DNA from: Thermodesulfovibrionales bacterium
GTDB lineage: Bacteria > Nitrospirota > Thermodesulfovibrionia > Thermodesulfovibrionales > UBA9159
Length of the DNA: 34,738 nucleotides
Assembly (NCBI GenBank): GCA_035686305.1
Contig: DASRZP010000064.1
Location: 1 to 34,738, forward strand
Reading direction: 5' to 3'
Of this stretch, positions 4,436 to 31,241 are shown in pieces. The notes beneath the pieces were generated by a model that was given only the letters and a program-made list of their open reading frames with translations, was not told the origin of the DNA and made no database searches. The stretch's first letter is position 1; each line of letters opens with the position of its first letter. Position numbers and translations under genes: made by a program.

Positions 4436-4848
4436 ACCCTGACGTTGCAAACGATGGCAAGGCAGGCATGGATCGAAGCCCTGTACATGCGATGAGATTC
4501 CGGTAACGAGGTACTTCGATGACTTCATCGTAAGTGACCTCCCGCATTGAGCATACAGCGGCGCAGTCGGCAACCATCAAAGGTATCGGGATACAAGGCT
4601 TCTCACCATACCTGCCTTCCCGAACAAGATAGTTTTATGCAACTGGAAGGTAAACTTGAGAACTATTACTCCTGCAGCCAAATACTTTGGAGGCTGTCAT
4701 TCCCGCAAGCGGAGCGCGTCGGGAATCCTTCTGAGAAACCAGAAAAGATTCCGGACAAGCCGGAATGACAAACAGCAATACGTTTCATGTGTTTGACTGC
4801 CGAAGGAATGGGAACAAAAACAGGCAAAGGCTGAGAGGAGGTGATTCT
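4436..4848. other. 413-bp spacer between archease and rtcB
   Basis: Apart from a 76-bp inverted-repeat element at 4695-4770 and the rtcB ribosome site (AGGAGGTG, 4836-4843), I see no gene I can support. A minus-strand frame across 4440-4640 contains cysteine-rich stretches (VADCAAVCS; DPCLPC in another frame) that could be a decayed gene, but no family fits well. Confidence 0.4.
4695..4770. repeat. MITE-like palindromic element
   Basis: 76 bp bounded by perfect 9-bp terminal inverted repeats TGTCATTCC / GGAATGACA, with further inverted similarity inside (CCCGCAAGCGG versus CCGGACAAGCCGG; GGAATC versus GATTCC). Elements with this start and end are widespread as dispersed repeats in bacterial genomes (from memory). 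It ends 78 bases before the rtcB ATG, so it may supply a hairpin to the rtcB leader. Confidence 0.6.
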
Positions 4849-6312: not shown

Positions 6313-7236
6313 TCACTTATCCCGCGAGATGATTGCGGTAAAGATGTGTGTGATATCTCCGCCATGACCGTCAGAGACGATAACAGAAGCGGGCGCTGCG
6401 CCGACGAATTCCTTCGGCACCTCCCATCGTACAATTCCCCGCGATCCGTCAACGGTCATCCCTGGAGGCCCCGACTTGAGGGAATACGTCAGGGCATCTC
6501 CATCAGGGTCGGCAGCCTTGATCTGATAGATGTAGACCTTCCCATCGAAGCTGACCTTCTTATCATCCATGACTACCGGAGGCATGTTCGCGATCTCTCT
6601 GTTTAACACGACAGTATTGCCGTACTCCTCTCCATCGAAGGCGGTTATCCTGACGGATATCTTATCACCTCTCTTGAGTGGACCGATTATCCGTTTGCCG
6701 TTTCCGGCAGGCTCTCCATTCTTTGTCCATTCATATTGGAGGGTAATATTATCGCCGTCCGCATCCCGCACCGCTGTTTCGACACTCAGAGAACCGCCCT
6801 GACCGGACTCAGGGACGATCTTTGCGTCGGTAATCTGCGGTGGTGCGTTTCTTATCTGCACGATGTCGGACAGGACTTCTCTTCCCCCTATCATCGCCCT
6901 GACCTGGACCTTATCGCCTTTTCTGACGCCTGATGGTTTGAACTGATTCGGTATCGGGCTGGCTACGGTTTTACCATTCACCAGCCACTCGATCTTTGCG
7001 GCAGCTAGATCGAAGCCTTGCGGGCTGAGGACAATCGTCGAATCTGTTGTGGCTTTTTCCGGAGAAATTCTTATGCCATAGAGTGCAGAACTCTCGTTAA
7101 CTGACTGTGAGGCTCCTTGTACCGCCTCTTTTACCGACTCGGAATCTTTCTGTCGGCCCATCTCCCCGCTCTTTTCCGAGGAGCAGGAGAGGGAGAGGAG
7201 AAGCAAGAATGTCATGAGAGAGGCGAGTCCCCGCAT
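6313..7236 (-). CDS. Ig/cadherin-like lipoprotein at the end of the pilin operon
   Basis: 307 residues. A signal peptide with lipobox (SLSC, Cys18) predicts a lipid-anchored periplasmic or outer-membrane protein. The mature part has three or four beta-rich segments: IRISPEKATTDSTIVLSP, then PPQITDAKIVPESGQGGSL...VRDADGDNITLQYEWTKNGEP, then NMPPVVMDDKKVSFDGKVYIYQIKAADPDGDALTYSLKSGPPGM ending VSDGHGG. The D-x-D-G-D and DGHGG motifs are typical of calcium-binding cadherin-like or Ig-like repeats. It starts two bases after the PilX-like gene's stop, so it is likely the last gene of the minor-pilin operon and may assist pilus assembly or adhesion. It converges on rtcB with only 18 bases between; no terminator is visible there. 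Function otherwise unknown. Confidence 0.75.
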   Translation of the reverse strand: MRGLASLMTFLLLLSLSCSSEKSGEMGRQKDSESVKEAVQGASQSVNESSALYGIRISPEKATTDSTIVLSPQGFDLAAAKIEWLVNGKTVASPIPNQFKPSGVRKGDKVQVRAMIGGREVLSDIVQIRNAPPQITDAKIVPESGQGGSLSVETAVRDADGDNITLQYEWTKNGEPAGNGKRIIGPLKRGDKISVRITAFDGEEYGNTVVLNREIANMPPVVMDDKKVSFDGKVYIYQIKAADPDGDALTYSLKSGPPGMTVDGSRGIVRWEVPKEFVGAAPASVIVSDGHGGDITHIFTAIISRDK

Positions 7237-16381: not shown

Positions 16382-16399
16382 TGTCACGGAATCGTGACA
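16382..16399. promoter_or_regulatory. Operator-like dyad TGTCACG-N4-CGTGACA
   Basis: Perfect 7-bp inverted repeat centred ~51 bases before the expected start from the 16430 TATAAT box. A further half site TGTCAC lies at 16366-16371, 16 bases upstream. It resembles binding sites of CRP/FNR- or CooA-like dimers, but the regulator is unknown. Confidence 0.45.
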
Positions 16400-16482: not shown

Positions 16483-16665
16483 ATGAGGAATCCGGAGATA
16501 TGGATATTCATTTTTATTCTTGGCCTCTTGGGGCTTAACTGGCCCTTCCTTGAAATATTCAATGTCACCGTAGTCTCCTATCTCTTCATTTTCTGGTTTC
16601 TTTTCATTCTCCTCGTGGCTTTTGCAGTTCGCAAGACGAGAGGCGCCAATAACCATGATGTGTAG
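16483..16665 (+). CDS. 60-residue membrane protein, small partner of the symporter-kinase
   Basis: Two predicted membrane helices: IWIFIFILGLLGLNWPF and VVSYLFIFWFLFILLVAFAV, with a basic C-terminal tail RKTRGANNHDV. Strong ribosome site (GGGGGTGGAG) ahead of ATG 16483. It ends 2 bases before the symporter-histidine kinase. Small two-helix proteins often precede sodium:solute symporters (DUF485 before ActP, as happens again at 27071; DUF997 before PanF). By that analogy it may assist folding or transport of the next protein. No family name can be given from the sequence. Confidence 0.75.
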   Translation: MRNPEIWIFIFILGLLGLNWPFLEIFNVTVVSYLFIFWFLFILLVAFAVRKTRGANNHDV

Positions 16666-16667
16666 GA

Positions 16668-19625
16668 ATGTTCGAGGCCTATAATCTTTTCAGTATTGTC
16701 CTGTGCTATCTCTTTCTTCTCTTTGCCTTAGCCTACTATGCGGAGAGAAAGGAAAAGTCGGGAAGGAGCATCGCCAATAACCCTTACATCTATTCCCTAT
16801 CACTAGCGGTCTACTGCACGTCATGGACCTTTTACGGGAGCGTAGGGAAAGCGGCCACGTCAGGACTCTCCTTCCTCACCATCTATCTGGGGCCGACGCT
16901 CATGGCGACCCTCTGGATTGTCATGCTCAGGAAGGTCGTGAGGATTGCCAAGGCAAACAGGATCACGACCCTGTCTGACTTCATCGGATCACGATACGGT
17001 AAATCGCTCTTCCTTTCTTCCCTGGTGACGATTGTTGCCGTAGTCGGTATCACGCCATACCTGGGACTTCAGATCAAGGCGATCATCAGCACCTTTGACA
17101 TCATATCCGGTGAATCATCGGGAAGCGCTGCCATTGGACTCTTTATCACCTTGACCCTTGGAATCTTCGCAATCATCTTCGGCGCTCGCCGCCTTGATTC
17201 GTCAGAGCGTCACGGTGGCCTCGTCTTCGCCATCGCCTTCGAGTCCATCGTGAAGTTGGCTGCCTTTCTCCTCGTCGGTACCTATGTAACCTACGGGCTC
17301 TTTAATGGCTTCGGCGATATCTTTGCCAAGATTAAGGATTCTGAGCACTCTGTGCTCCTCTTTCTCGGGACAGGGACGGGGACGGATTATCCTGAATGGC
17401 TGTCGCTTCTTTTCCTCTCGATGATGGCCATCATGTTCCTGCCCCGCCAGTTCCAGATGGCTGTTGTCGAGAACTATGACGAAAACCATGTGACAAAGGC
17501 TGCATGGCTCTTTCCTCTCTATCTCTTTCTCATGAACATCTTCGTGCTGCCTATCGCCTTTGGCGGGCTTCTCCTCGGGGGTTCGGGGAAGAATGCCGAT
17601 TACTTTGTGCTCACCCTGCCCTGGGAGCACGGCAACAGGTACCTGTCGCTTTTGGCGTTTATCGGCGGCTTTTCAGCGGCTACGGGCATGGTAATCGTCG
17701 AAAGCCTGGCTCTGAGCACCATGGTAATGAACAGTATCATCATGCCGGCGCTGATCAACTTCCATGATGCCCCGAAATTCTCCTCCGTCGTCCTTAACAT
17801 TAAGAGACTCGTAATCCTCTCTGTCGTCTATATGGGCTATGTCTTTGCGACTTCAATCGGAGAATTCTACAGCCTTGTCGAGATCGGACTCAAGTCATTT
17901 GCTGCGGTGAGTCTCTTTGCGCCGGCCTTCTTTCTCGGACTCTACTGGAAGAGGGGGACGAGGGCCGGGGCCACAGCAGGACTCCTTGCAGGCTTTGCTG
18001 TCTGGTTCTACACCCTCATCGTTCCCGCCCTCATAAAGGCGGGGATCGTGAAGAATGTCGGTGTTATCGAGCTCATGACGGGTTCTGAAATGCTCAATCC
18101 GCATAATCTCTTCGGAATCGTTGACCTTGGCAAATGGGGAAACTCGCTCTTCTGGAGCATGCTCATAAACCTCATCTTCTACGTCGGCGTCTCGATCTTC
18201 ACCAGACAGTCAAAGGAGGAGGAGATCCAGTCCCTCATCTTCGTAGATTCCTATGAAAGGGTGAAGGAACTCGCCCACGGAAGTTCTTATACGGCCCATG
18301 ATATCGAAAATATCCTTGCCCAGTATATCGGCAGGGCCGAGGCAGGAGACGTCACCGCGCACTATCTGTCGAAAAAAGGGAAGAGCCATGAGGAACTTAC
18401 GCCAAGGGAACTTTTTGAGTTGCGCGACGAGGCGGAAAAGATCCTCTCAGGCGCGATCGGCTCTTCCATGGCCGCGATTATCTTCGAGGATAAGCTCGTG
18501 CTGACGGAGAGGGAGAGAGGGGAACTTTCTGAATCGATCAAGCATATCACCGAACATCTGAGACTCTCCCGTCAGGAACTGGCGGAAGCGAACCGGGAAC
18601 TCTCGTATCTCAAGGAATTCAGTGAGAATATTATTGAAAGCGCCCCCGTCGGCATCGTGACCGTTGATGCTCTTTTCAATGTCAAATACTGGAACAGGGA
18701 GATGGAGTCCATAAGCGGCATCGGGAGATCAGTTGCCTTTAACAGGTCTCTGCTCCATCTGCTGCCATGGTTGACAAGGGAGGTACTCATACGGACAGAG
18801 GAAAAGGAGATGACCGTCGAGACTCCTTCCCTCCAGTCCTTCAAGATCAATGTGAGCCCGTTCAAAGACCCTTCGGGCGGGCATGTTGTCATCTTCGAAG
18901 AGATCACGGAGAAGAAGAAGATGGAGGAGCAACTCTTGCAGACGTCAAAGCTCGCCAGTATCGGTAAATTGACAGCCGGGATATCCCATGAGATCGGCAA
19001 CCCCCTTGCATCGATATCCTCCCTCGTCCAGGAACTCAGGTCATTGAGCATCGAATCACGGGACGATGTCGAATTTGTAGACGGCTCGCTGAAGACGATC
19101 AACAGCCATATCGATCGGATCGTGAAGATCGTCCGGAGCCTGGGCGATTTCGCGAGGATATCCTCCCCGGAAAAGACGCCTTCCAATATTTCTGAGATCC
19201 TTGACAGAACGATAAACCTTGTCAGGTATGACAAGAGGTTTAAGAATATTCAGCTCATCACTGATATAGACGGGATTCCGTCCCTGAGGGTCAATCCCGA
19301 TAAGATCCAGCAGGTCTTTTTGAACCTCATTATCAACGCCCTCGATGTCATGCCCGACGGCGGCAGACTGAGCATCTCGATGAAAAAGACCGATTCATCC
19401 GTTCAGGTAGTTTTCAGCGATTCGGGCCCGGGGATCGAGGAAGGCCTTGTTGGCAGGATCTTTGATCCCTTCTTTTCGACGAAGGCCCCGGGGCAGGGCA
19501 CGGGCTTAGGTTTGAGCATCTGCTATGGTATAATCAGGGAACATAACGGGACGATAACGGCTAAAAGCAAAAAAGGAGAGGGGACTACATTCGTCATAAC
19601 CCTGCCCGCCGACAAGAATGAATGA
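16668..19625 (+). CDS. Sodium:solute symporter-STAC-PAS-histidine kinase (CrbS/CbrA-like)
   Basis: 985 residues. Residues 1 to ~505 form a 13-helix SLC5/SSS transporter (SNNPYIYSLSLAVYCTSWTFYGSVGKAA, GFSAATGMVIVESLALSTMV). A STAC-like linker follows (~515-620; EAEKILSGAIGSSMAAIIF is the typical end), then a coiled coil (~620-655), a PAS domain (~655-755; ENIIESAPVGIVTVDALFNV), HisKA with phospho-His774 (GKLTAGISHEIGNPLASI) and HATPase_c with N-box NLIINALDVMPDGG, DSGPGIEEG and GTGLGLSICYGI. In CrbS of Vibrio and Pseudomonas this architecture controls acetyl-CoA synthetase and acetate use; CbrA controls carbon/nitrogen balance. The acs-actP genes downstream favour the acetate role. Its last 8 bases overlap the first response-regulator gene. 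Start GGAATG 16668. Confidence 0.9.
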   Translation: MFEAYNLFSIVLCYLFLLFALAYYAERKEKSGRSIANNPYIYSLSLAVYCTSWTFYGSVGKAATSGLSFLTIYLGPTLMATLWIVMLRKVVRIAKANRITTLSDFIGSRYGKSLFLSSLVTIVAVVGITPYLGLQIKAIISTFDIISGESSGSAAIGLFITLTLGIFAIIFGARRLDSSERHGGLVFAIAFESIVKLAAFLLVGTYVTYGLFNGFGDIFAKIKDSEHSVLLFLGTGTGTDYPEWLSLLFLSMMAIMFLPRQFQMAVVENYDENHVTKAAWLFPLYLFLMNIFVLPIAFGGLLLGGSGKNADYFVLTLPWEHGNRYLSLLAFIGGFSAATGMVIVESLALSTMVMNSIIMPALINFHDAPKFSSVVLNIKRLVILSVVYMGYVFATSIGEFYSLVEIGLKSFAAVSLFAPAFFLGLYWKRGTRAGATAGLLAGFAVWFYTLIVPALIKAGIVKNVGVIELMTGSEMLNPHNLFGIVDLGKWGNSLFWSMLINLIFYVGVSIFTRQSKEEEIQSLIFVDSYERVKELAHGSSYTAHDIENILAQYIGRAEAGDVTAHYLSKKGKSHEELTPRELFELRDEAEKILSGAIGSSMAAIIFEDKLVLTERERGELSESIKHITEHLRLSRQELAEANRELSYLKEFSENIIESAPVGIVTVDALFNVKYWNREMESISGIGRSVAFNRSLLHLLPWLTREVLIRTEEKEMTVETPSLQSFKINVSPFKDPSGGHVVIFEEITEKKKMEEQLLQTSKLASIGKLTAGISHEIGNPLASISSLVQELRSLSIESRDDVEFVDGSLKTINSHIDRIVKIVRSLGDFARISSPEKTPSNISEILDRTINLVRYDKRFKNIQLITDIDGIPSLRVNPDKIQQVFLNLIINALDVMPDGGRLSISMKKTDSSVQVVFSDSGPGIEEGLVGRIFDPFFSTKAPGQGTGLGLSICYGIIREHNGTITAKSKKGEGTTFVITLPADKNE

Positions 19626-20793
19626 AAGGCTGCTGATCGTCGAAGACGAGGAGACTCTCTGTGAGTCGCTGAAAAGGGTACTCTCACGAGAAGGCTATAT
19701 TGTCGATATCTCTTACAGCGCCGAGTCAGCCCTCGATCTTTTTGAACAGAGGTTTTACGACCTGATCATAACTGATATCATCCTGCCCGGGAATACGGGG
19801 ATAGAGCTGCTGAAGTCGGTCAAGGAGAAAGTCCCTGAACAGATCGTGATCATAACCACGGCCTATGCATCGCTGGAGACGGCTGTTGAAGCCCTTCGGG
19901 CAGGCGCCTATGATTATGTGGTGAAGCCCGTCATGCACGAAGAGATTAAGCAGATTGTGAAGAATGCTCTCACTCAGGCTGCACTCCAGGAAGAAAACCT
20001 CAGGCTTCGCAGGCATATCGAGAGGCACTATGACCTCAGTATGATTATCGGTGAGAGTGCTGTCATGAGGACCGTCATCGGCGAAGTGAGGAATATCTCG
20101 GGTAGTGGGAAGAACGTTCTCCTGAACGGAGAGATAGGAACAGGCAGGGAGCTTATCGCCAGGGCCATACATCTGAACAGCGGAAGGGACGGTAAGCCCT
20201 TCATCCCGGTAAATCTCTTTACGATTCCCGAAGAGCTTCTTGAGGCAAGGCTCTTTGGTTATGTAAAAGGGGCCTTCAAGGATGCCCTGACTTCCAGGAA
20301 GGGGCTTTTTGAGGAAGCCGATGGCGGGACGCTCTATCTTCGTGACATCGGCTTCCTGAGCGGCTCTCTCCAGGCAAAACTGTTCAGGGCCCTTGAAGAC
20401 CATGAGACCGTTCCCGTTGGCGGCAAACAGGGCATTAAGGTTGACATGCGGATCGTTTCTGCCACAAGCCATGATATCGCCTCTGCGGTGGCGAAAGAGG
20501 AATTCAGGAAGGACCTCTATGGCCTGTTGAACGGTATCTCATTAAGGCTTCCTCCTCTGCGGGAACGAAAAGAAGATATAGAGCCCCTGGCAAGACACTT
20601 TATCAGAAAGTATTCCCAGGATTTGTGCAAGCCCGTCAAGGAACTCGAAGGGGAGGCCCTGGATCTCTTCCTTCGGTACGATTGGCCGGGCAACGTGAGG
20701 GAACTCCAGAATATTATTGAAAGGGCGGTCCTCATATCGGATACTGACATAATAAGGGTGAATCATCTCCCCCAATTCTTCCCGCCGGCGTGA
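19618..20793 (+). CDS. Degenerate NtrC-type response regulator lacking GAFTGA and DNA-binding domain
   Basis: 391 residues: receiver domain intact (LLIVEDEE; phospho-Asp53; Lys103), then a sigma-54 AAA+ domain with damaged motifs. Walker A is GEIGTGRE (171-178; the lysine is Arg), the sigma-54 contact loop GAFTGA is GAFKDA (218-223), Walker B LDEI is LRDI (241-244), sensor I ATN is ATS, and one arginine of RxDLYYRLN is lost (RKDLYGLLN). The C-terminal Fis-type helix-turn-helix is missing; the protein ends just after the AAA+ lid (WPGNVRELQNIIERAVL). It should not open sigma-54 promoters itself. Possible roles: phosphate sink, inhibitor, or mixed oligomer with the intact paralogue at 22801. 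The start overlaps the kinase stop, so it is the kinase's coupled partner. Confidence 0.88.
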   Translation: MNERLLIVEDEETLCESLKRVLSREGYIVDISYSAESALDLFEQRFYDLIITDIILPGNTGIELLKSVKEKVPEQIVIITTAYASLETAVEALRAGAYDYVVKPVMHEEIKQIVKNALTQAALQEENLRLRRHIERHYDLSMIIGESAVMRTVIGEVRNISGSGKNVLLNGEIGTGRELIARAIHLNSGRDGKPFIPVNLFTIPEELLEARLFGYVKGAFKDALTSRKGLFEEADGGTLYLRDIGFLSGSLQAKLFRALEDHETVPVGGKQGIKVDMRIVSATSHDIASAVAKEEFRKDLYGLLNGISLRLPPLRERKEDIEPLARHFIRKYSQDLCKPVKELEGEALDLFLRYDWPGNVRELQNIIERAVLISDTDIIRVNHLPQFFPPA

Positions 20794-20885: not shown

Positions 20886-22781
20886 ATGATCCTTGAAGAT
20901 GTCATAAGTTTTCTCAAGAAAATCCCCCCCTTCCAGTCTCTCGATGAAAAGACCTTGAAGACCGTTGCCGGCAGTCTGTCCATGGAGTTCTATCCGAAAG
21001 AGACGGTCATTCTGGCGCAGGGAGGCCCGCCAAGCGATTCCCTGCGGATCATAAAAAAAGGCGGGGTGAAGATTGTCATGAGGTCGGAGAATGGAGAGGA
21101 CGTCGTGATGGACTACCGGGGGGAGGGCGATAACTTCGGGTTCCTCTCGATGATCGGTAAAGAACGGGGCAAGACGACGGTCATTGCTATTGACGATACC
21201 ATCTGTTATACCCTGAGACAGGAAAGAGTCCTGAAGCTCATAGAATCGACTCCGGCCTTCACAGAGTATTTCATGTCATACCTTTCGAGGTATATCGACA
21301 GGGCTTACAGCGAAATGCAGACCAAGAGTCGGTCCTCTGTCGGCAGCGACCGTTTTCTGTTTACGACACCCGTGGGGAGGATAGCGACGGAAGCTGTCAT
21401 GGTCAGCGATGACATGACCATTCAGGAGGCCGCCCAGACTATGACAAAGAACAAGATCAGTTCTCTCATCGTCCGTGACAAGAAGAGCCTCCCCTCGGGT
21501 ATCGTTACAGACAGGGACCTCAGGGACAAGGTTGTTGCACGGGGACGCAACGTACGGGAACCGATAAAAAACATCATGTCCATATCCCTCATAAGGGTTG
21601 ACGCTCAGGATTCCTGCTTTGAGGCCGTATTGAAAATGCTGAAATACAATATCCATCACATGCTGGTGATAGAAGACGGGGCGTTGAAAGGCATCATGAC
21701 CAATCATGACCTCATGCTCCTCCAGGGAACGTCCCCCCTCTCCTTTGCCAGTGACATAGAAAACCAGCAGACTGTCGACGGTCTCTTGCCGGTATCCTCA
21801 AAAATAAACAATCTCATCGGTCTCCTCCTCAAGGAGGGTGTGAAGGCGAGCGGGATCACGAAGATCTTAACCGAGATCAATGACAGACTGGTAAAGAAAG
21901 TCATCGAAATTGCAGAGAAGGAATGTGGACAACCGCCGCTTCCCTATTGCTGGATCGTTTTCGGCAGCGAGGGTCGCAAGGAACAGACCTTCAAAACAGA
22001 CCAGGATAATGCTATCATCTTTGTTGACCCCGTAACGAAGGAAATGGAGGAGGCTGCTAAGGCTTATTTTCCCTGCTTTGCAGTTTTTGTCAGAGACAGC
22101 CTTCTGAAGATCGGTTTCCCCCTTTGTCCCGCCGACTATATGGCGAGCAATCCCCAGTGGTGCCAGCCGCTCAAGGTCTGGAAAAAGTACGCGGCGGACT
22201 GGATGAACGAACCGACTCAGGAGGCGGTGTTGAAATCCCTCATCTTTTTCGACGCCAGGCCCCTCTATGGTAAATTCAGCCTCCACGATGAGCTGCGAGG
22301 GTCTTTCCGGCTCCTCTCGGAGGGACAGAATGTCTTCCTCTGTCATATGGCGAACCTGATCATAAAAAATACCCCGCCCATCGGTTTTCTCAAGTCCTTC
22401 GTTGTCGAGAAGGGCGGTGAACATAAGGACGAGTTCAACCTTAAGGTGAAGGGTATTACCCCGCTCGTTGATGCCGTGAGGCTCTTTGCCCTCGAAAAGG
22501 GTGTTCGGGAAACGTCGACCCTCGGAAGAATCGAGGCTCTGAGAGAACGACACGCGATTGTAAAGGAACATGTTGAAGAGCTGAGGCATGCCTTTGAGTT
22601 CATCATGCTTCTCAGGATCCAGCATCAGTTCGAGCAGATCAGTGAAGGCGTGAAACCTGACAACTTTATCAATCCCAACAAGCTGAGCAACCTCGAGAAG
22701 AAGACGATCCGGGAGGCCTTTCATCTCGTGTCGAGCCTGCAGGAGCTGATCTTCGAGAGGTGTAAGGCCTTCATCGTGTAA
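20886..22781 (+). CDS. cNMP-binding / CBS / DUF294 nucleotidyltransferase-like signalling protein (copy 1)
   Basis: 631 residues in four parts: cyclic-nucleotide-binding domain (~10-130: FYPKETVILAQGG, GDNFGFLSM), tandem CBS domains (~165-285: MTIQEAAQTMTKNKISSLIV, SGIVTDRDLRDKVV; GIMTNHDL), DUF294 nucleotidyltransferase-like domain (~310-450) and DUF294 C-terminal helices (~480-625). The nucleotidyltransferase motif GSEGRKEQTFKTDQDNA starts at ~360 and retains the Gly-Ser and the DxD-type acidic pair. The family resembles GlnD-type uridylyltransferases and travels with acs-actP, DnaQ-like exonuclease and CrbS-type kinases; substrate unknown. The second copy at 24411-26312 is very similar throughout. 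The 92 bases ahead of it show no clear promoter; ribosome site weak. Confidence 0.87.
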   Translation: MILEDVISFLKKIPPFQSLDEKTLKTVAGSLSMEFYPKETVILAQGGPPSDSLRIIKKGGVKIVMRSENGEDVVMDYRGEGDNFGFLSMIGKERGKTTVIAIDDTICYTLRQERVLKLIESTPAFTEYFMSYLSRYIDRAYSEMQTKSRSSVGSDRFLFTTPVGRIATEAVMVSDDMTIQEAAQTMTKNKISSLIVRDKKSLPSGIVTDRDLRDKVVARGRNVREPIKNIMSISLIRVDAQDSCFEAVLKMLKYNIHHMLVIEDGALKGIMTNHDLMLLQGTSPLSFASDIENQQTVDGLLPVSSKINNLIGLLLKEGVKASGITKILTEINDRLVKKVIEIAEKECGQPPLPYCWIVFGSEGRKEQTFKTDQDNAIIFVDPVTKEMEEAAKAYFPCFAVFVRDSLLKIGFPLCPADYMASNPQWCQPLKVWKKYAADWMNEPTQEAVLKSLIFFDARPLYGKFSLHDELRGSFRLLSEGQNVFLCHMANLIIKNTPPIGFLKSFVVEKGGEHKDEFNLKVKGITPLVDAVRLFALEKGVRETSTLGRIEALRERHAIVKEHVEELRHAFEFIMLLRIQHQFEQISEGVKPDNFINPNKLSNLEKKTIREAFHLVSSLQELIFERCKAFIV

Positions 22782-22800: not shown

Positions 22801-24147
22801 GTGAACGAGAGACTGCTGATCGTTGAAGACGAAGAGACCCTCTGCGAGTCTCTGAAGAGGGTACTTGAGAGAGAAGGATATGTGGTTGACGCCTTTACCA
22901 GTGCCGAATCCGTTCTCGGAAAGATTGAAGAGATGGCCTATGACCTGATCATCTCGGACATTACCCTTCCCGGGATCGACGGGATAGAGCTCTTGCGCAG
23001 GATAAAAGAAAAATTGCCGGAACAGATCGTCATCATCATCACTGCCTATGCCTCGATAGAGACCGCAGTCGGTGCCCTCAGGGCCGGAGCGTATGATTAT
23101 GTCATAAAGCCGATCATGCATGAGGAGATAAAGAGAATCGTCAGAAATGCCCTGAAAGAACGGTCCCTGAGGGCAGAAAATGTATTGCTCAGGAGGCAGA
23201 TAGAGGAGAGATACGATTTCGAAAAGATCGTGGGCCAGAGCAGTGAGATCTCCGCAGTGATCGGTGAAGTCAAGAAGATTGCCGATTCAAGGAGCAGTAT
23301 ACTCCTTCTCGGCGAGACCGGTACGGGTAAGGAGCTTGTGGCGAGGGCTATTCACTATAACAGCTTCCGTCAGGACAAGCCCTTTGTCCCAATAAACTGC
23401 AGCGCGATTCCAGAGAATCTCCTTGAATCAGAACTCTTCGGGTATATAAAGGGGGCTTTTACGGGCGCAACGGGTTCGAAGAGGGGTCTCTTCGAGGAGG
23501 CAGACGGCGGGACTATCTTTCTCGATGAAATCGGAGAACTGAGCCAGCACTTACAGGCAAAGCTCCTCCGGGTAATAGATGACCATGAGATAAGACCCCT
23601 CGGCAGTACTCAGTCCCGAAAAGTCGACGTGAGGTTTATTGCGGCCACAAACAAGGACATCCTGAGGGCGGTAAATGAAGGTACCTTCAGGGAAGACCTC
23701 TACTACAGGATCAATGTCGTCACGATCACGTTGCCGCCTTTGAGGGAAAGGAGAGAGGACATTGTTATCCTCGCGAAGCACTTTGTCGAGAAATATGCGA
23801 ACGAGATTGGAAAGTCAGTAAAGTTTATCGATGATTCTGCCCTGAAAATTCTCGTGGACTACCCCTGGCCTGGAAATGTCAGGGAACTGCAGAACATCAT
23901 TGAACGCGCGGTGCTCATAACCGAAAGCAACACGATCTTTCGGGAACATCTTCCCGAAGGCATGAAGGTCCGCGATTCTTTCGTAGCTGCTGCCTTTAAT
24001 ACCGTCCTTTCAATCGAAGACTATACAAAGGAATTCATCCTGAGGTTCCAGTCAGCCTATACCGAACAGAAGCTTGCAGATATGCTCGGCATCACGAGAA
24101 AGTCTTTGTGGGAAAAGAGAAGAAAATGGGGGCTCAAGAGGAAATAG
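22801..24147 (+). CDS. Intact NtrC-family sigma-54 response regulator
   Basis: 448 residues, all three domains. Receiver with phospho-Asp53 and Lys103; AAA+ with Walker A GETGTGKE (171-178), GAFTGA (218-223), Walker B LDEI, ATNKD, FREDLYYRINVV and PPLRERREDI; a C-terminal Fis-type helix-turn-helix, YTEQKLADMLGITRKSLWEKRRKWGL. The first ~30 residues are almost identical to the degenerate paralogue at 19618, showing duplication. Predicted to activate sigma-54 RNA polymerase; candidate targets in the window are the promoters at 24367-24382 and 16202-16217. The start is GTG 22801 (matching MNERLLIVEDEE of the paralogue) with ribosome site GGAAGG about 14 bases ahead. No ATG start fits better. Confidence 0.93.
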   Translation: MNERLLIVEDEETLCESLKRVLEREGYVVDAFTSAESVLGKIEEMAYDLIISDITLPGIDGIELLRRIKEKLPEQIVIIITAYASIETAVGALRAGAYDYVIKPIMHEEIKRIVRNALKERSLRAENVLLRRQIEERYDFEKIVGQSSEISAVIGEVKKIADSRSSILLLGETGTGKELVARAIHYNSFRQDKPFVPINCSAIPENLLESELFGYIKGAFTGATGSKRGLFEEADGGTIFLDEIGELSQHLQAKLLRVIDDHEIRPLGSTQSRKVDVRFIAATNKDILRAVNEGTFREDLYYRINVVTITLPPLRERREDIVILAKHFVEKYANEIGKSVKFIDDSALKILVDYPWPGNVRELQNIIERAVLITESNTIFREHLPEGMKVRDSFVAAAFNTVLSIEDYTKEFILRFQSAYTEQKLADMLGITRKSLWEKRRKWGLKRK

Positions 24148-24366
24148 TTACTATTGTTCACGGTAAGGCCTCATTCTTGTTACAATAAGTTACATAAGGT
24201 AATATCTTAAAATTAAGGATATTTCATTTATCATTTCGTTCCATGTTACCTCTAGTAACTAATTTGTCTGAGCTCTAAAATTGAGACTTTAAGGTCAGTG
24301 ACCGGTTATTTGCAATAATCCTTGTTATACAGTAAGTTATGCTATCTTGACCTACCAAATAATCTT

Positions 24367-24382
24367 GGGCACATTACTTGCG
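24367..24382 (+). promoter_or_regulatory. Probable sigma-54 promoter of the second cNMP/CBS protein
   Basis: GGGCAC (24367-24372; TGGCAC with one change), exactly five bases, then TTGCG (24378-24382): GG-N10-GC spacing is exact. The start would be near 24393, 18 bases before ATG 24411. It follows 230 AT-rich bases with no gene, room for upstream activator sites, immediately after the NtrC-type gene. Confidence 0.6.
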
Positions 24383-24410: not shown

Positions 24411-26312
24411 ATGCCTATCGAAGACGTCATCGAGTTCCTTAAAGAGGTCACACCGTTTCACGAGCTTGACGAAGCTACTCTGAGCAGTATCGCGAGTAGT
24501 ATCTCCATTGAATTCTATCCGAAGGGTTCCATGATACTCCGCCAGGAAGGGCCTGCAAGTGAGTACCTGAGGATCATCAGACAGGGTTCGGTGAAGGTAT
24601 TCATAAGGTCTGGCAGGGACGACGAGGTCATGATCGACGTAAGGGGCGAAGGCGATTCCTTCGGCTTTCTCTCCCTTGTGAGCGGCGACAAATCCAGGGC
24701 CAATGTAGTTGCTCTGGATGACACCACCTGCTATCTTATAGGTCGGGAGAAGGTCCTTGAGCTTCTCGAAACCTATCCGGCTTTTACCGAATACTTTCTC
24801 GTTTCCGTCCTGAACAAATATATCGACAAGACTTATAAGGAGATGAGGAAGAAGAGCGTCCTTTACAGTGGAGGAGACAGACTCCTCTTCACCACCCCCA
24901 TCGGCGAGCTTGTTACAAAGGCGATCATAACCGCGTCCCAGGAGATCTCGATACGGCAGGCTGCCGAGATCATGTCGGAAAACAGGATAAGCTCTCTTGT
25001 CCTTGTCGATTCCGAAGGGGTTCCGACAGGTATCGTCACGGACCGGGACCTGAGGGATAAGGTTGTCTCAAAGGAAAGAAATGTCTCGGAAAGCGCGAAG
25101 ACGATTATGAGCGTCTCCCTTATCAAGGCCGACGCCCGTGATTATTGCTTCGAAGCGATTCTCAACATGATACGGTACAACATACACCACCTTTTGGTGA
25201 TCGACAACGGCAAACTCAAGGGGGTGATCACCAACCATGACCTTATGATGCTCCAGGGCACTTCTCCCATCTCTATAGCACGGGAGATAGAAAGTCAGCA
25301 GTCCGTAGAAGGACTGGTCCCTGCGTCGAAGAAGATAAACAAGATCATAGAGCTCCTCCTCAAGGAAGGGGCCAAGGCGAGCAATATCACAAGGATCATT
25401 AGCGAGATCAATGACCGGCTCTTTAGGAAGATCGTCGAGATTACGGAAAAGAAGCTCGGAAGCCCTCCTCTTGATTATTGCTGGATCATTTTCGGCAGCG
25501 AAGGCCGTAAGGAACAGACCTTCAGGACCGATCAGGACAACGCGATCGTCTATGAAGACACAACGTCGCCTGAGAGGGAGGAAGAGGCGAGGACCTATTT
25601 TTCGGCCCTCACGCTCCTCGTCCGCGACGGTCTTCTGAAATGCGGATTTCCGCCCTGTCCTGCCGATTATATGGCGAGCAACCCCCAGTGGTGTCAGCCG
25701 CTGAGGGTGTGGAAAAGGTACTTCTCTCTGTGGGTCAACGAACCGACGGCTGAAGCCCTTTTGAAGTCCCTCATATTCTTCGATTTCAGACCGCTTTATG
25801 GCAATATAAGCCTTTCTGAGGCGCTCAGAGATGCCCTCTCTTCCTTGCTGAAGAGCCAACCGGCCTTTTTCGGCTTTATGGCAAATGCCGTGATTAAGAA
25901 CACCCCTCCCATGGGCTTCCTCAGGTCCTTTGTGGTCGAAAAGAGCGGTGAGCACAAGGATGAATTCGATCTCAAAGTAAAAGGGATTGCCCCCCTTGTT
26001 GATGCCGTCAGACTCTTTGCTCTCGAGAAAGGGATACGGGAGACCTCAACCCTTGAAAGGATTGAGACGCTGAGAGACCGGCATACGATCGTCAAGGAGA
26101 GCGCCGAAGAGCTTGAATATGCCTTTGAGTTCATCATGCTCCTGAGGGTCCAGCATCAATTTGATCAGATCGAGGTGGGCAGGCAGCCTGACAATTTCAT
26201 CAATCCGTACAAATTAAGCAGTCTTGACAAAAAAATCCTGAAGGACAGTTTCTCTCTTATTTCAAGGATACAAGACCTTATCATCGAACGATACAAACAG
26301 TCAATCTTGTAA
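24411..26312 (+). CDS. cNMP-binding / CBS / DUF294 nucleotidyltransferase-like signalling protein (copy 2)
   Basis: 633 residues from ATG 24411, the start that aligns with copy 1 (MPIEDVIEFLKEVTPF versus MILEDVISFLKKIPPF). In-frame starts at 24399 (ATG) and 24378 (TTG, inside the sigma-54 -12 box) are also open. Same order: cNMP domain (FYPKGSMILRQEGPASEYL; GDSFGFLSLV), two CBS domains (ISIRQAAEIMSENRISSLVLV; GIVTDRDLRDKV), nucleotidyltransferase motif GSEGRKEQTFRTDQDNA at ~362, and DUF294 C-terminal region ending LISRIQDLIIERYKQ. It is followed, three bases on, by the DnaQ-like exonuclease, the pairing found in many acetate-use loci. It differs from copy 1 in having its own sigma-54-type promoter, so expression of the two copies may differ. 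Confidence 0.87.
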   Translation: MPIEDVIEFLKEVTPFHELDEATLSSIASSISIEFYPKGSMILRQEGPASEYLRIIRQGSVKVFIRSGRDDEVMIDVRGEGDSFGFLSLVSGDKSRANVVALDDTTCYLIGREKVLELLETYPAFTEYFLVSVLNKYIDKTYKEMRKKSVLYSGGDRLLFTTPIGELVTKAIITASQEISIRQAAEIMSENRISSLVLVDSEGVPTGIVTDRDLRDKVVSKERNVSESAKTIMSVSLIKADARDYCFEAILNMIRYNIHHLLVIDNGKLKGVITNHDLMMLQGTSPISIAREIESQQSVEGLVPASKKINKIIELLLKEGAKASNITRIISEINDRLFRKIVEITEKKLGSPPLDYCWIIFGSEGRKEQTFRTDQDNAIVYEDTTSPEREEEARTYFSALTLLVRDGLLKCGFPPCPADYMASNPQWCQPLRVWKRYFSLWVNEPTAEALLKSLIFFDFRPLYGNISLSEALRDALSSLLKSQPAFFGFMANAVIKNTPPMGFLRSFVVEKSGEHKDEFDLKVKGIAPLVDAVRLFALEKGIRETSTLERIETLRDRHTIVKESAEELEYAFEFIMLLRVQHQFDQIEVGRQPDNFINPYKLSSLDKKILKDSFSLISRIQDLIIERYKQSIL

Positions 26313-26314
26313 GA

Positions 26315-27019
26315 ATGCTGGGCTTGTTGAATTTCAGGAAGAGGAAGGGAACAGTGATCGACGAAACGCTGCCGGTCGGTAAGGTCAGGTATGTCATAAT
26401 CGATACCGAACTCACCGGTCTTGATGAAAAACGAGACTCCATCGTCTCCATGGCTGCCATACGGATGGTAGGCGGAAGGATAGACTTTGGAGATGTCTTT
26501 TATAAGCTTGTAAACCCTGAGACGGAACTGACCGCGAAAAGCATCATTATCCATGGAATTACACCCTCGGATGTTGTCGAGAAGCCTGAGATTGCCACGG
26601 TCCTCTCGGAATTTGTCCAGTTCTGCGGCAACGATGTCGTTGTGGGGCATTGCATATCGGTGGACCTCGCCTTTATCAACAGGGAGATGAAAAGAATTCT
26701 CGGATACGCCTTGAAGAACGAGGTCCTTGACACGTCTGCCATCTATGAATGGATACGGAAAAGGTATTCTTCCCAGAGGACTTTCCCTTCTCGGTTCACG
26801 GACTCAGGATTGTTTGACATCGCAGAGCATTTTGGAGTCTCTGTTACCGGCGCGCATAATGCGGCAATGGACGCATTCATCACGGCGCAGGTCTTTCAGC
26901 GGTTCATCCCTATGCTGACCGGAGGAGGGATAAACAGCATAGGCGACCTGTTAGGTATCGGTAATCCATCAAAGGGAGGTGATAGGACAGGACATGCGAT
27001 TGGGATGTACACTTTTTAG
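26315..27019 (+). CDS. DnaQ-like DEDDh 3'-5' exonuclease
   Basis: 234 residues of the DnaQ/polymerase-epsilon family. Exo I: IIDTELTGLDEKRDSIVSMAA (the Asp and Glu metal ligands); TAKSIIIHGITPSDV; Exo II: GHCISVDLAFINREM (Asp); Exo III: TGAHNAAMDAFITAQVF (His and Asp). No BRCT or polymerase domain is attached, so it is a stand-alone exonuclease, possibly acting on small RNA or nucleotide signals. Exonucleases like this lie next to DUF294/CBS proteins and acs-actP genes in many proteobacteria; their role there is unknown. ATG 26315 follows the stop of the previous gene directly, with an overlapping ribosome site. Confidence 0.88.
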   Translation: MLGLLNFRKRKGTVIDETLPVGKVRYVIIDTELTGLDEKRDSIVSMAAIRMVGGRIDFGDVFYKLVNPETELTAKSIIIHGITPSDVVEKPEIATVLSEFVQFCGNDVVVGHCISVDLAFINREMKRILGYALKNEVLDTSAIYEWIRKRYSSQRTFPSRFTDSGLFDIAEHFGVSVTGAHNAAMDAFITAQVFQRFIPMLTGGGINSIGDLLGIGNPSKGGDRTGHAIGMYTF

Positions 27020-27070: not shown

Positions 27071-27388
27071 ATGAGCAGTAAGAAGACCGTGCATGAAATC
27101 CTTGAGGACGAGGATTTCAAATCATTGACGAGTCAGAAGAATACGATCTCCGTAATTCTGACGGTTCTGGAACTGGTTCTCTATTTCGGGTTTATCGCCC
27201 TGATCGCCTTTAACAAACCGTTCCTGGCCCAGAAGCTGAGTGAAGGGTCGGCCACGACGATCGGAATTCCCATTGCTGTCGGCACGATCCTTTTCTCCTG
27301 GGTCTTTACGGGTATTTACATCTTTTGGGCGAACAGCAAGTATGACGTGCTGGTCAAGAAAGTCAAAGAGAAAGTGATAGGAGGATAA
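27071..27388 (+). CDS. DUF485 membrane protein (YjcH-like)
   Basis: 105 residues. N-terminal motif [27 protein letters not shown] and two membrane helices, [15 protein letters not shown] and [25 protein letters not shown], then a basic tail [13 protein letters not shown]: the usual DUF485 layout. Such proteins are encoded just before ActP-type symporters (yjcH-actP in E. coli). ATG 27071 has the best ribosome site (GGAGGAGG, 8 bases ahead); the in-frame ATG at 27053 overlaps that site. It ends 2 bases before actP, so translation is probably coupled. Confidence 0.9.
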
Positions 27389-27390
27389 CG

Positions 27391-29130
27391 ATGCCACAAG
27401 CAACACAAACTATGATAGGTCAGGCGAACCCGACGGCGATAATGTTCTTCGTTTTTTTCGTTGCTAGTACCCTGGGCATTACGTATTGGGCTGCAAAGAG
27501 AACGCGGACCACAAAGGACTTCTACGCCGCGGGCAGGAGCATCACCGGTTTCCAGAACGGCCTCGCCCTTGCCGGTGATTACATGAGTGCAGCGTCCTTT
27601 CTCGGGATCGCGGGAATAGTCTCGACAAAGGGGTATGACGGCCTCATCTATTCAGTGGGATGGCTGGTGGGATGGCCGATCATCATGTTCCTCATATCAG
27701 AACCCCTGAGAAACCTGGGCAAATACACCTTCGCCGATGTTGTCGCGTACCGGCTGAACCAGAGACCGATAAGGGCCGCTGCTGCTGCGGGCTCTCTCGT
27801 GGTCGTTCTCACCTACCTTATTGCCCAGATGGTTGGAGCAGGAACGCTCATAAAGCTGATGTTCGGTATCCCCTTTGAGGTTGCTATCATAGTGACGGGA
27901 ACACTGATGATATCCTATGTGATCTTCGGTGGTATGATCGCGACCACATGGGTCCAGATCATAAAGGCATGCCTGCTCCTCGGCGGAGCGACACTTCTCG
28001 TTATCCTGACCCTCGCCCAGTTCGGTTTCAGCTACGCCGAGCTCTTCGGCCAGGCAGAGAAGATGTACACGAACAAGTTCCTCGAGCCGGGAATACTCGT
28101 TACGGACCCCGTCGATGCCTTCTCCCTCGGACTCGCGCTTATGTTCGGTACGGCAGGACTTCCCCACATCCTCATGAGGTTCTATACGGTCCCTGATGCA
28201 AAGGCTGCAAGGAAGTCGGTCTTCTACGCAACAGGGTTCATCGGATACTTTTACATCCTCACCGTTACCATCGGTTTCGGCGCGGCAGTTCTCGTAACCC
28301 AGAAGGTCATCATGGGTATAGACAAGGGCGGCAACATGGCAGGACCTCTCCTTGCAGAGGCCCTCGGCGGGAACCTCTTCCTCGGGTTCCTTTCGGCCGT
28401 TGCCTTTGCCACCATCCTTGCCGTTGTCTCAGGCTTGACCCTTGCAGGCGCATCCGCCTTCTCCCATGACCTCTTTGTCGGCGTCATCAGGCGCGGCCAG
28501 GCATCAGAAAAGGATGAGGTGAAGGTCGCAAAGATCGCGACCGTCGGCCTTGGCATCACGGCAATGCTCCTCGGGATCCTCTTTAAGGGCCAGAACGTCG
28601 CCTTCCTCGTCGGCCTCACCTTTGCTATCGCTGCGAGCGCCAACTTCCCTGCGCTCCTCATGTCGATCCTCTGGAAGAAGTTCACCACATACGGGGCGGT
28701 GACGAGTATTTACACCGGCCTTATCGTCGCTACAGCGCTCCTGATCCTCAGCCCGACGGTATGGGTCGATATCGTCCACAAGGACGATGTGGCTGCGGTG
28801 AGCAAGCAGGTCAAGACAATCGAAGACGGCGTAAAGGCAAAGGTCGCCGAACTCGAGAAACAGAAAGTCCCGGGAGTCGATCCTGTAATGGCAGCGCAGA
28901 TAGATGCCTCGATTGCAGCAGAGAAGAAGGCGGCAGAACCACAGATTAAAGCGGCAAAGTCCAATATGCCGAAGGCGATTTTCCCTCTTAAGAACCCCGG
29001 TATATACTCTATGGCAGCAGCCTTTATCATCGGCATTCTCGTGTCCCTCATGGCGCCTGACAAGGTCGCCGAAGCGAAGTTTGATGGTGAGAAACTGAGG
29101 GAGTATATCGGCATAGGGGCTGAAGATTAG
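27391..29130 (+). CDS. actP: ActP-like sodium:solute symporter with a coiled-coil loop insertion
   Basis: 579 residues, SSS/SLC5 family, likely carrying acetate or another short carboxylate into the cell with Na+ or H+. N-terminal helix [19 protein letters not shown], then [37 protein letters not shown], the classic ActP segment, and [24 protein letters not shown]. Compared with ActP proteins I know, which run SPTVWVDV...IFPLKNP, this one carries about 65 extra residues at ~463-527 between the last helices: charged, Ala/Lys/Glu-rich, helical, with a probable coiled coil ([28 protein letters not shown]-like repeats). Genes for acetyl-CoA synthetase and DUF485 flank it. Confidence 0.9.
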
Positions 29131-29264: not shown

Positions 29265-31241
29265 ATGTCAAAAGAGAGCATTAGCGTCTTGATGGCTGAA
29301 AACAGGACATTTCCACCATCAAAGGAGTTTAGCGGAAAGGCCCACATCAAGAGCATTCAGGACTATGAAAAGATCTATAAGAAGTCTGTAGATGACCCCG
29401 AAGGCTTCTGGGGTGAGATGGCAGAAAAGCATCTCACCTGGTACAAGAAGTGGGATAAGGTGCTGGAATATAATTTTGAGAGACCCGAGATCAAGTGGTT
29501 CCAGGGCGGGAGGATCAATGTCTCCTACAACTGTCTTGACAGGCACATAACGACACCCACACGGAACAAGGCTGCCATTATCTGGGAAGCCGATGACGGG
29601 AGTTACAAGACCTACACCTACCAGCAGATGTACTATGAGGTGAACAAGTTTGCGAATGTCCTCAAGAAGCACGGAGTGAAGAAGGGCGACAGGGTCACCA
29701 TATATCTCCCCATGATCCCGGAGTTGGCCATCTCCATGCTCGCCTGTTCCAGGATCGGGGCCATTCATAGCATCGTGTTCGGAGGATTCAGCGCACAGTC
29801 CTTGAGGGACAGGATCCAGGACTGCAAGGCGAGTCTTCTCATCACCTGCGATGAGGGCGCGAGGGCAGGGAAATTCGTGCCCCTCAAGGCCAATGCAGAT
29901 GAGGCGCTCAACGAGTGTCCGACGGTCGGGAAGGTGATCGTCGTTCAGAGGACAAAGAGCGGCGAGATCAATATGGTTAACGGCAGGGACCTGTGGTGGA
30001 ATACGGAGATGTCGGCTGCGGACGTTCAGGGCTACTGTGAACCGGTCCAGATGGACGCTGAAGATCCGTTGTTTATCCTCTATACCTCGGGTTCGACAGG
30101 AAAGCCAAAGGGAGTGCTCCACACGACAGGAGGCTACCTCCTCTTTGTGAACCTCACCTTCAAATGGATCTTCGACTACCAGGAGGAAGACATCCATTTC
30201 TGCACAGCAGACATAGGCTGGGTAACGGGACATAGTTACATTGTGTACGGGCCTCTTTCTGCGGGCGCCACGAGCCTGATGTTCGAGGGTGTACCGACCT
30301 ATCCGAACGCCGGCAGATTCTGGGACATCTGCGACAAGCACCGGGTTAATATCTTTTATACAGCTCCGACTGCCATAAGGGCCTTGATGAGGGAAGGCGA
30401 AGGCTGGGTTACGAAACATGACCTTTCATCCCTGAGATTGCTGGGCACCGTTGGCGAGCCGATCAATCCCGAAGCCTGGATGTGGTATCACACCCACGTC
30501 GGAAAGGGAAAATTACCTATTGTGGATACGTGGTGGCAGACAGAGACAGGAGGGATCCTCATAACGCCCCTTCCCGGAGCCATGACCTTGAAGCCGGGAT
30601 CAGCCACAAGGGCCTTTCCCGGTGTTGTCCCTAGGGTCTTGAAAGAAGACGGTTCTCCTGCAGGGGTAGACGAAGGCGGTTACCTTGTTATCGAGAAACC
30701 CTGGCCGGGCATGCTGAGGGGTACTTTTGGGGACCCGGAAAACAAGAGGGTAAAGGAGGTTTACTTCACGAGGTTCCCCGGCAGGTACTTTACCGGAGAC
30801 GGCGCAAGAGTTGACGGAGACGGTGATTACTGGCTCATGGGGAGAATCGACGATGTCATCAACATCTCCGGCCACCGGCTCGGGACGGCTGAGGTCGAAT
30901 CGGCCCTCGTGAGCCACGAGGCCGTTGCAGAGGCAGCGGTGGTCGGTTATCCCCACGACATTAAGGGAGAGGGCATTTATGTCTATGTGACCCTTAAGGA
31001 AGGTAAGCAGCCGACAGATGAACTGAAGAAGATTCTTGTGGGCCATGTGAGGACGGTCATCGGGCCCATCGCAACACCCGACAAACTCCAGTTTGCACCG
31101 GGTTTGCCGAAGACGAGGAGCGGCAAGATCATGAGAAGGATTCTGAGGAAGATCGCCCACGGACAGATTGATGAACTGGGTGATACCTCGACCCTTGCCG
31201 ATCCATCAGTTGTTGACAACCTGGTAAAGGGAAGACAGTGA
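29265..31241 (+). CDS. acs: Acetyl-CoA synthetase (AMP-forming)
   Basis: 658 residues, full length. Converts acetate, ATP and CoA to acetyl-CoA. AMP-binding landmarks: [20 protein letters not shown] (P-loop), [46 protein letters not shown] (A8 hinge) and the C-terminal [11 protein letters not shown] with Lys621, the residue acetylated to switch the enzyme off in known Acs. N-terminal ACAS region [20 protein letters not shown] present. Strong ribosome site GGAGG 7 bases before ATG 29265. It completes the DUF485-actP-acs series and suggests growth on, or scavenging of, acetate. A long hairpin at 29180-29225 separates it from actP. Confidence 0.96.

Follow-up and report, generated by a model that had tools for sequence, protein, structure and literature searches.

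Histidine kinases in which an SLC5-type symporter is fused to PAS and kinase domains, such as those of the CrbS/CrbR and CbrA/CbrB systems (SLC5/STAC kinases), are each described with one cognate response regulator, which in CbrB is of the sigma-54 type. Targets of CrbS/R include acs, actP and a gene for a cAMP-binding/CBS/nucleotidyltransferase protein (PMC5715377). Here we analyse a stretch of 34,738 nucleotides (contig DASRZP010000064.1 of assembly GCA_035686305.1; hereafter the window) from a Thermodesulfovibrionales bacterium with a 3.2 Mb genome whose closest named relatives are metagenome-assembled genomes of Nitrospirota. In this window an SLC5-fused kinase precedes a sigma-54-type response regulator, RR2, but a second regulator without output, RR1, is interposed. 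We found no description of this configuration of kinase, output-less RR1 and RR2 in the open-access literature.

RR1 can be compared with several described types of regulator. With NtrC-family activators (NtrC1, AtoC, ZraR) it shares the receiver-linker-AAA+-lid order and fold, but it has no helix-turn-helix (HTH), its Walker B and RxDxxxR motifs are dead and GAFTGA is absent, so that the known activation mechanism is impossible. FlgR of Helicobacter pylori is also an NtrC-type regulator without a DNA-binding domain (PMC9696931) and activates sigma-54 RNA polymerase independently of enhancers; that RR1 is an activator of this kind is excluded by its dead ATPase and contact-loop motifs. The GAFTGA-less NtrC proteins of Caulobacter and Rhodobacter capsulatus have likewise lost the L1 contact loop, but they still regulate transcription, at sigma-70-type promoters, and the Caulobacter protein requires its Walker A and B residues (PMC10274813), whereas RR1 has neither a working Walker B nor an HTH. 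A further comparison is with the single-domain response regulators, among them the Rhodobacter kinase inhibitor Osp and Myxococcus NmpT, a proposed phosphate sink next to an NtrC-like regulator (PMC6211767). Like these, RR1 combines an intact receiver with the absence of any working output. Four of its orthologues (L070, L071, L104 and L110) are exactly receiver-only; RR1 of the window retains an AAA+ fold, and the NtrC-type ancestry is visible through preserved intermediates.

RR1 is a sigma-54 regulator stripped of its output

The features of RR1 are as follows.

19618-20793, forward strand: RR1, an HTH-less NtrC-type response regulator with a dead AAA+ domain (reading frame, Pfam, motif alignment)
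19618-19977, forward strand: RR1 receiver domain, residues 1-120 (E9, D10, D53, T81 and K103 intact; mean 81% identity among the 391-aa orthologues)
20041-20775, forward strand: RR1 AAA+ core and lid, residues 142-386 (motif alignment; the AlphaFold2 model is confident here)

The gene is an uninterrupted frame of 391 codons whose start overlaps the stop of the kinase gene by 8 bp. The original prediction described an intact receiver in a fully open frame, coupled to the kinase gene, with altered Walker A, GAFTGA and Walker B motifs and no HTH, and direct reading together with Pfam bears this out. Walker A is GEIGTGREL (Lys to Arg; GETGTGKEL in the paralogue RR2), the L1 loop reads GAFKDA in place of the sigma-54 contact motif GAFTGA, Walker B is LRDI rather than LDEI (Asp-Glu to Arg-Asp), and the sensor I Asn is Ser. 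RxDxxxR has become RxDxxxL (FRKDLYGL, against FREDLYYR in RR2). The earlier statement that an arginine finger is lost holds for this final arginine, the equivalent of PspF R168, but not for the equivalent of the genuine finger, PspF R162, which RR1 of the window retains and six of the nine AAA+-bearing orthologues lack. None of the three features expected for hydrolysis by a sigma-54 activator (Walker A Lys, Walker B Asp-Glu, RxDxxxR) is thus present in the window protein. In PspF, ATPase activity disappears, or almost does, with any one of the substitutions R168A, D107A (at the Walker B Asp) and K42A (at the Walker A Lys) (PMC3419264), so a working RR1 ATPase is very unlikely.

Pfam recognises Response_reg (94.4 bits), Sigma54_activat (181.5 bits, weaker than the 240.2 bits of RR2) and AAA_lid (96.5 bits) in RR1, with no match to HTH_8. 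The protein ends in HLPQFFPPA directly past the AAA+ lid, where RR2 runs on into its HTH, and the downstream gaps of RR1 and receiver-only loci hold no credible HTH or AAA+ remnant. The AlphaFold2 model (mean predicted local distance difference test score, pLDDT, 86.7; predicted template modelling score, pTM, 0.62) preserves the receiver, the linker helix and the AAA+ fold, and the closest solved structure is NtrC1 (1ny5, 42% identity). The AAA+ fold is therefore predicted to persist, although a model of this sort says nothing about whether nucleotide is bound.

The same kinds of loss are shared by the orthologues described below, so the proposal that the regulator coupled to the kinase is unable to activate transcription is well supported by the loss of Walker B, RxDxxxR, contact loop and HTH. 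On these sequence features, RR1 is almost certainly not a transcription activator.

The losses recur in one slot across a Nitrospirota class

Of 230 genomes from this Nitrospirota class, 86 carry the kinase, and in these we read the regions downstream of it. The most frequent arrangement is kinase, single full response regulator, single DUF294 gene and exonuclease; many genomes have one regulator only, and in single-regulator loci such as L053 it is the full-length regulator that occupies the kinase-overlapping position. An RR1 orthologue lies in the kinase-proximal slot in 13 of the loci read, the window included. Nine of these retain AAA+ but have no HTH. Five are about 391 aa long (G000, G001, G002, G156 and G168); the other four, at about 355 aa (G225, G226, G228 and G229), are missing L1 in its entirety and, beyond it, another short segment. 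The remaining four of the 13, in genomes G003, G004, G219 and G222, are the receiver-only forms; L104 and L110 have lost most of the linker too, while L070 and L071 keep a coiled-coil-like linker. The 8-bp overlap with the kinase gene recurs in L070, L071, L072, L105 and L106.

Not one of 68 full-length regulators departs from the Walker A Lys, the Walker B Asp-Glu pair, the sensor I Asn or RxDxxxR, and in this set GAFTGA is near-universal with few conservative exceptions. All nine AAA+-bearing RR1 proteins, on the other hand, have replaced the Walker B Asp (with Arg in five, Asn in four), have broken RxDxxxR by losing its last Arg, and have GAFTGA either altered (five) or deleted (four). Conservation of the damaged motifs in relatives therefore holds for these three and fails for Walker A, where Lys to Arg is private to the window genome and the other eight proteins keep Lys. 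The sensor II Arg is retained in all nine. The Asp to Arg change in Walker B, common to five genomes, fits a single ancestral inactivation. Decay with stop codons, which would have marked a dying gene, was looked for in the relatives: all nine AAA+-bearing frames are open, and where the AAA+ domain has gone the receiver remains. The receiver acidic pair, phospho-Asp, Thr and Lys are intact in all 13 orthologues, the receiver-only ones included. A sequencing or assembly artefact as the source of the losses is excluded, as syntenic orthologues elsewhere show the same kinds of loss.

The 13 RR1 receivers, together with one fused gene from G166, form a clade (support 99/92), and the 12 DUF294a proteins that adjoin RR1 form a single clade in the DUF294 tree (SH-aLRT, the Shimodaira-Hasegawa-like approximate likelihood ratio test, 100). 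Three of the four receiver-only genes lie next to a DUF294a from this clade. The nine HTH-less AAA+ domains fall on the same side of a branch (SH-aLRT 96) in a quick tree with long branches, which we take as support only. Receiver-only G219 and G222 are sisters and adjoin the 355-aa forms of the same family, while G003 and G004 group with the family of the window; the AAA+ domain has therefore been lost at least twice. RR1 carriers are scattered over the kinase tree (7 changes), so that we cannot tell gain, loss and transfer of the module apart.

Two further sets of sequences touch on this history. In G166 (L137) a full-length regulator at 4807 on the kinase strand has a receiver that groups with the RR1 clade and an AAA+ domain that groups with RR2, followed by an HTH of RR2 type. 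This is probably a fusion that deleted the intervening module, and the joining of an RR1-type receiver to RR2-type AAA+ and HTH domains suggests that the RR1 receiver still functions as a switch. A second set of receiver-only genes, rec2, occupies the same slot in L076-L079, L082, L095, L096 and L151, mostly beside a distinct DUF294 clade, and perhaps represents a separate origin of the same arrangement. The rec2 genes place outside the RR1 clade, but since a joint clade is not rejected (approximately unbiased test, p-AU 0.273) we do not use them as independent proof.

Constraint is strongest on the receiver

Among the five 391-aa RR1 proteins mean identity is 0.81 in the receiver and 0.51 in the AAA+ core; the corresponding values for RR2 of the same genomes are 0.71 and 0.78. 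By identity, then, RR1 receivers are conserved at least as well as those of RR2, and the RR1 AAA+ domain has diverged far faster. The ratio of nonsynonymous to synonymous substitution rates (dN/dS) is unusable for pairs of these distant forms because dS is saturated. In the closest set (G225, G226, G228 and G229), rough counting estimates from four and three sequences give 0.061 for the RR1 receiver and 0.157 for its AAA+ domain (95% bootstrap 0.110-0.212), against 0.027 and 0.046 for RR2. The RR1 AAA+ domain is thus relaxed, not neutral, and the check on relatives foreseen in the original prediction comes out in favour of purifying selection. In the kinase-facing segment of helix alpha1, RR1 and RR2 of the same genome are 64-93% identical, an indirect sign that both may be phosphorylated by the one kinase. 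Its conservation and its intact catalytic residues make the receiver very probably the part of RR1 on which selection acts.

RR1 is a real, conserved and informative case of a sigma-54 response regulator that has shed its output yet persists as a receiver; its function we infer below.

Candidate RR2 sites and a putative acetate regulon

Gene order in the window is SLC5-PAS-kinase, RR1, DUF294a, RR2, DUF294b, DnaQ-like exonuclease, small membrane protein, ActP-like symporter and Acs-like synthetase.

16668-19625, forward strand: SLC5 (SSF)-PAS-HisKA-HATPase histidine kinase of CbrA/CrbS-like architecture (Pfam SSF, PAS, HisKA, HATPase_c)
20886-22781, forward strand: DUF294a, with cNMP-binding, two CBS and nucleotidyltransferase DUF294 domains (Pfam); its orthologues mark the RR1 slot
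22801-24147, forward strand: RR2, an intact NtrC-type sigma-54 response regulator with HTH (Pfam; motifs GETGTGKEL, GAFTGA, LDEI, FREDLYYR)
24179-24203, forward strand: two overlapping GTTAC-N5-GTWAY dyads, candidate RR2 enhancer sites
24245-24259, forward strand: perfect dyad GTTACCTCTAGTAAC, candidate RR2 enhancer site
24368-24381, forward strand: candidate sigma-54 -24/-12 promoter GGCACATTACTTGC
24420-26312, forward strand: DUF294b (Pfam)
26315-27019, forward strand: DnaQ-like exonuclease (RNase_T Pfam match)
27071-27388, forward strand: small membrane protein before ActP, DUF485-like by position (translation)
27391-29130, forward strand: ActP-like sodium/acetate symporter, named from sequence resemblance
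29265-31241, forward strand: Acs-like acetyl-CoA synthetase, named from sequence resemblance

Pfam shows in the kinase the SLC5 symporter fused to PAS and kinase domains that marks CbrA/CrbS-type proteins; the nearest NCBIfam models, AtoS/ZraS, score below cut-off, and the general Pfam scan, the sole check made for a STAC domain, did not match one. The listed open reading frame of DUF294b starts at TTG 24378, but the start of DUF294a lines up with an in-frame ATG near 24420, where we infer that translation begins.

Dyads of the GTTAC-N5-GTAAC type occur in 52 of 58 junctions between a full regulator and DUF294, where shuffles predict 0.66, and in none of the 19 that follow RR1 or a receiver-only gene. 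Of the same junctions, 26 of the 58 and none of the 19 hold a sigma-54-like site. We derived the pattern from the very sequences in which it was counted, the window and its relatives, related genomes are not independent, and post-RR1 junctions are often short, which lowers their chance of containing a site; the contrast is large all the same. The window has just three dyads, all at 24179-24259, with the candidate promoter further 3'. A scan of the window with a generic sigma-54 consensus gave 41 sites against 39 expected, not above chance, so the case for the promoter comes only from where it lies, from the strict site and from its reappearance in relatives. Because CrbS/R controls a gene set similar to the ActP-like and Acs-like genes here, an acetate role can be proposed with good reason, and by analogy the locus would be an acetate-type two-component system with a second, output-less partner.

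Upstream of the kinase, a 60-codon frame for a small hydrophobic protein (16483-16665) ends 2 bp 5' of the kinase start and is placed like Pseudomonas putida cbrX before cbrA. An inverted repeat, TGTCACG-GAAT-CGTGACA (about 16382-16399), is possibly a regulator site.

Possible roles of RR1

The original prediction named a phosphate sink, a mixed-hexamer brake and an adaptor as possible roles. Several things are seen directly in the sequences: the motifs are gone, the receiver, the slot and the overlap are conserved, AAA+ has been lost repeatedly, and the enhancer and promoter pattern is confined to RR2. RR1 orthologues have in common a receiver, a kinase-adjacent position and an absent output, which favours a receiver-only function, and the simplest such function would be that of a competing phosphoryl acceptor. 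Under this account the kinase would phosphorylate both RR1 and RR2. RR2 would bind the GTTAC-N5-GTAAC sites and switch on the sigma-54 promoter before DUF294b-exonuclease-actP-acs, while RR1, synthesised beside the kinase by virtue of the translational overlap, would compete for the phosphoryl group and then shed it. Such a sink or buffer would raise the threshold, or shorten the response, of the acetate regulon. We put the probability of the whole account - a maintained dead NtrC-type regulator with the receiver as its working part, acting as a competing acceptor - at about 0.5, and a sink is evenly balanced against other receiver-based roles.

Three points weigh against it. First, purifying selection still acts on the RR1 AAA+ domain among the four closest genomes, so where kept it does something, or at least must fold. 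Second, most kinase-bearing genomes are without RR1, and the system therefore works without it. Third, sequence cannot separate a sink from a receiver that inhibits the kinase or serves as an adaptor.

This last role, in which phospho-RR1 would bind a partner and alter its activity, the partner being either the adjacent nucleotidyltransferase DUF294a or, in the manner of Osp with CckA, the kinase, seems to us rather doubtful. Osp, a single-domain receiver, does inhibit its kinase directly (PMC9430884), and another single-domain receiver is reported to act on an enzyme of biosynthesis (PMC12802240). Where an RR1 orthologue is present, a DUF294a orthologue mostly accompanies it, but the pairing may be a mere relic of the origin of the module. 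In G219 the receiver-only gene lies beside the kinase with neither DUF294a nor RR2 next to them (RR2 is on another contig), and in G032, of the separate rec2 lineage, a receiver-only gene is followed directly by the full regulator.

Alternatively, the receiver, linker and dead AAA+ domain of RR1 could form heterodimers or heterohexamers with RR2 and so poison the ATPase ring. The fold is kept in the model, dN/dS of the AAA+ domain is far under 1, and the linker survives in L070 and L071 even without AAA+; in PspF, moreover, substitutions at R162, D164 and R168 make hexamer formation constitutive, and defective subunits interact when mixed (PMC3419264). Yet the AAA+ domain is the fastest-diverging part of RR1, its L1 region is deleted in four forms, and in the four receiver-only orthologues the receiver stayed after the AAA+ domain, and in two of them most of the linker, had gone. 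This repeated reduction to the receiver indicates that the AAA+ domain is dispensable and argues against ring poisoning as a general role, which we consider unlikely. Where the domain is kept, a mixed-oligomer brake may add to the receiver function, as residual purifying selection allows.

That RR1 is a pseudogene en route to loss, kept only through lying between needed genes, is highly improbable: its AAA+ domain evolves more than three times faster than that of RR2, many genomes manage with a single regulator and in L104 linker similarity continues about a dozen codons past the stop, but functionless decay is hard to square with open frames and with receivers that keep every catalytic residue, are conserved as much as or more than those of RR2 and have a dN/dS of 0.061.

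The wider interest of RR1 lies in the intermediates. For stand-alone receivers the origin is usually conjectured from the end result; here full-length, HTH-less dead-AAA+, loop-deleted AAA+ and receiver-only states occupy one slot by one kinase, so that route and order become testable. RR1 may also give acetate-sensing SLC5 kinases a second arm, and it cautions that NtrC-family annotations include proteins incapable of activating transcription. More tentatively, the locus might record how a sigma-54 activator turned step by step into a free-standing receiver via a long-lived, still selected pseudo-ATPase stage, with one kinase driving an activator and its disarmed relative as a built-in damper, and in some lineages the dead AAA+ domain might act on the ring of active subunits, so that RR1 would be a dominant-negative co-regulator.

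Other arrangements in the surveyed genomes

Besides RR1, L088 (G156) has an extra receiver-only gene of 129 aa between DUF294a and RR2, at about 6610-7000 on the kinase strand. Membrane-protein genes, by eye antiporter-like or CBS plus permease-like, lie between kinase and response regulator in L091, L092, L098, L101-L103, L137 and L139, in several genomes of one family. Finally, G000 carries another tandem NtrC-type pair (G000:C69:4219-6724; L020, L023) in which the upstream member is intact; the downstream regulator keeps its HTH and receiver, has TSASGA for GAFTGA and VDAV at Walker B, and has lost the R162-type arginine (FMEDLYFR).

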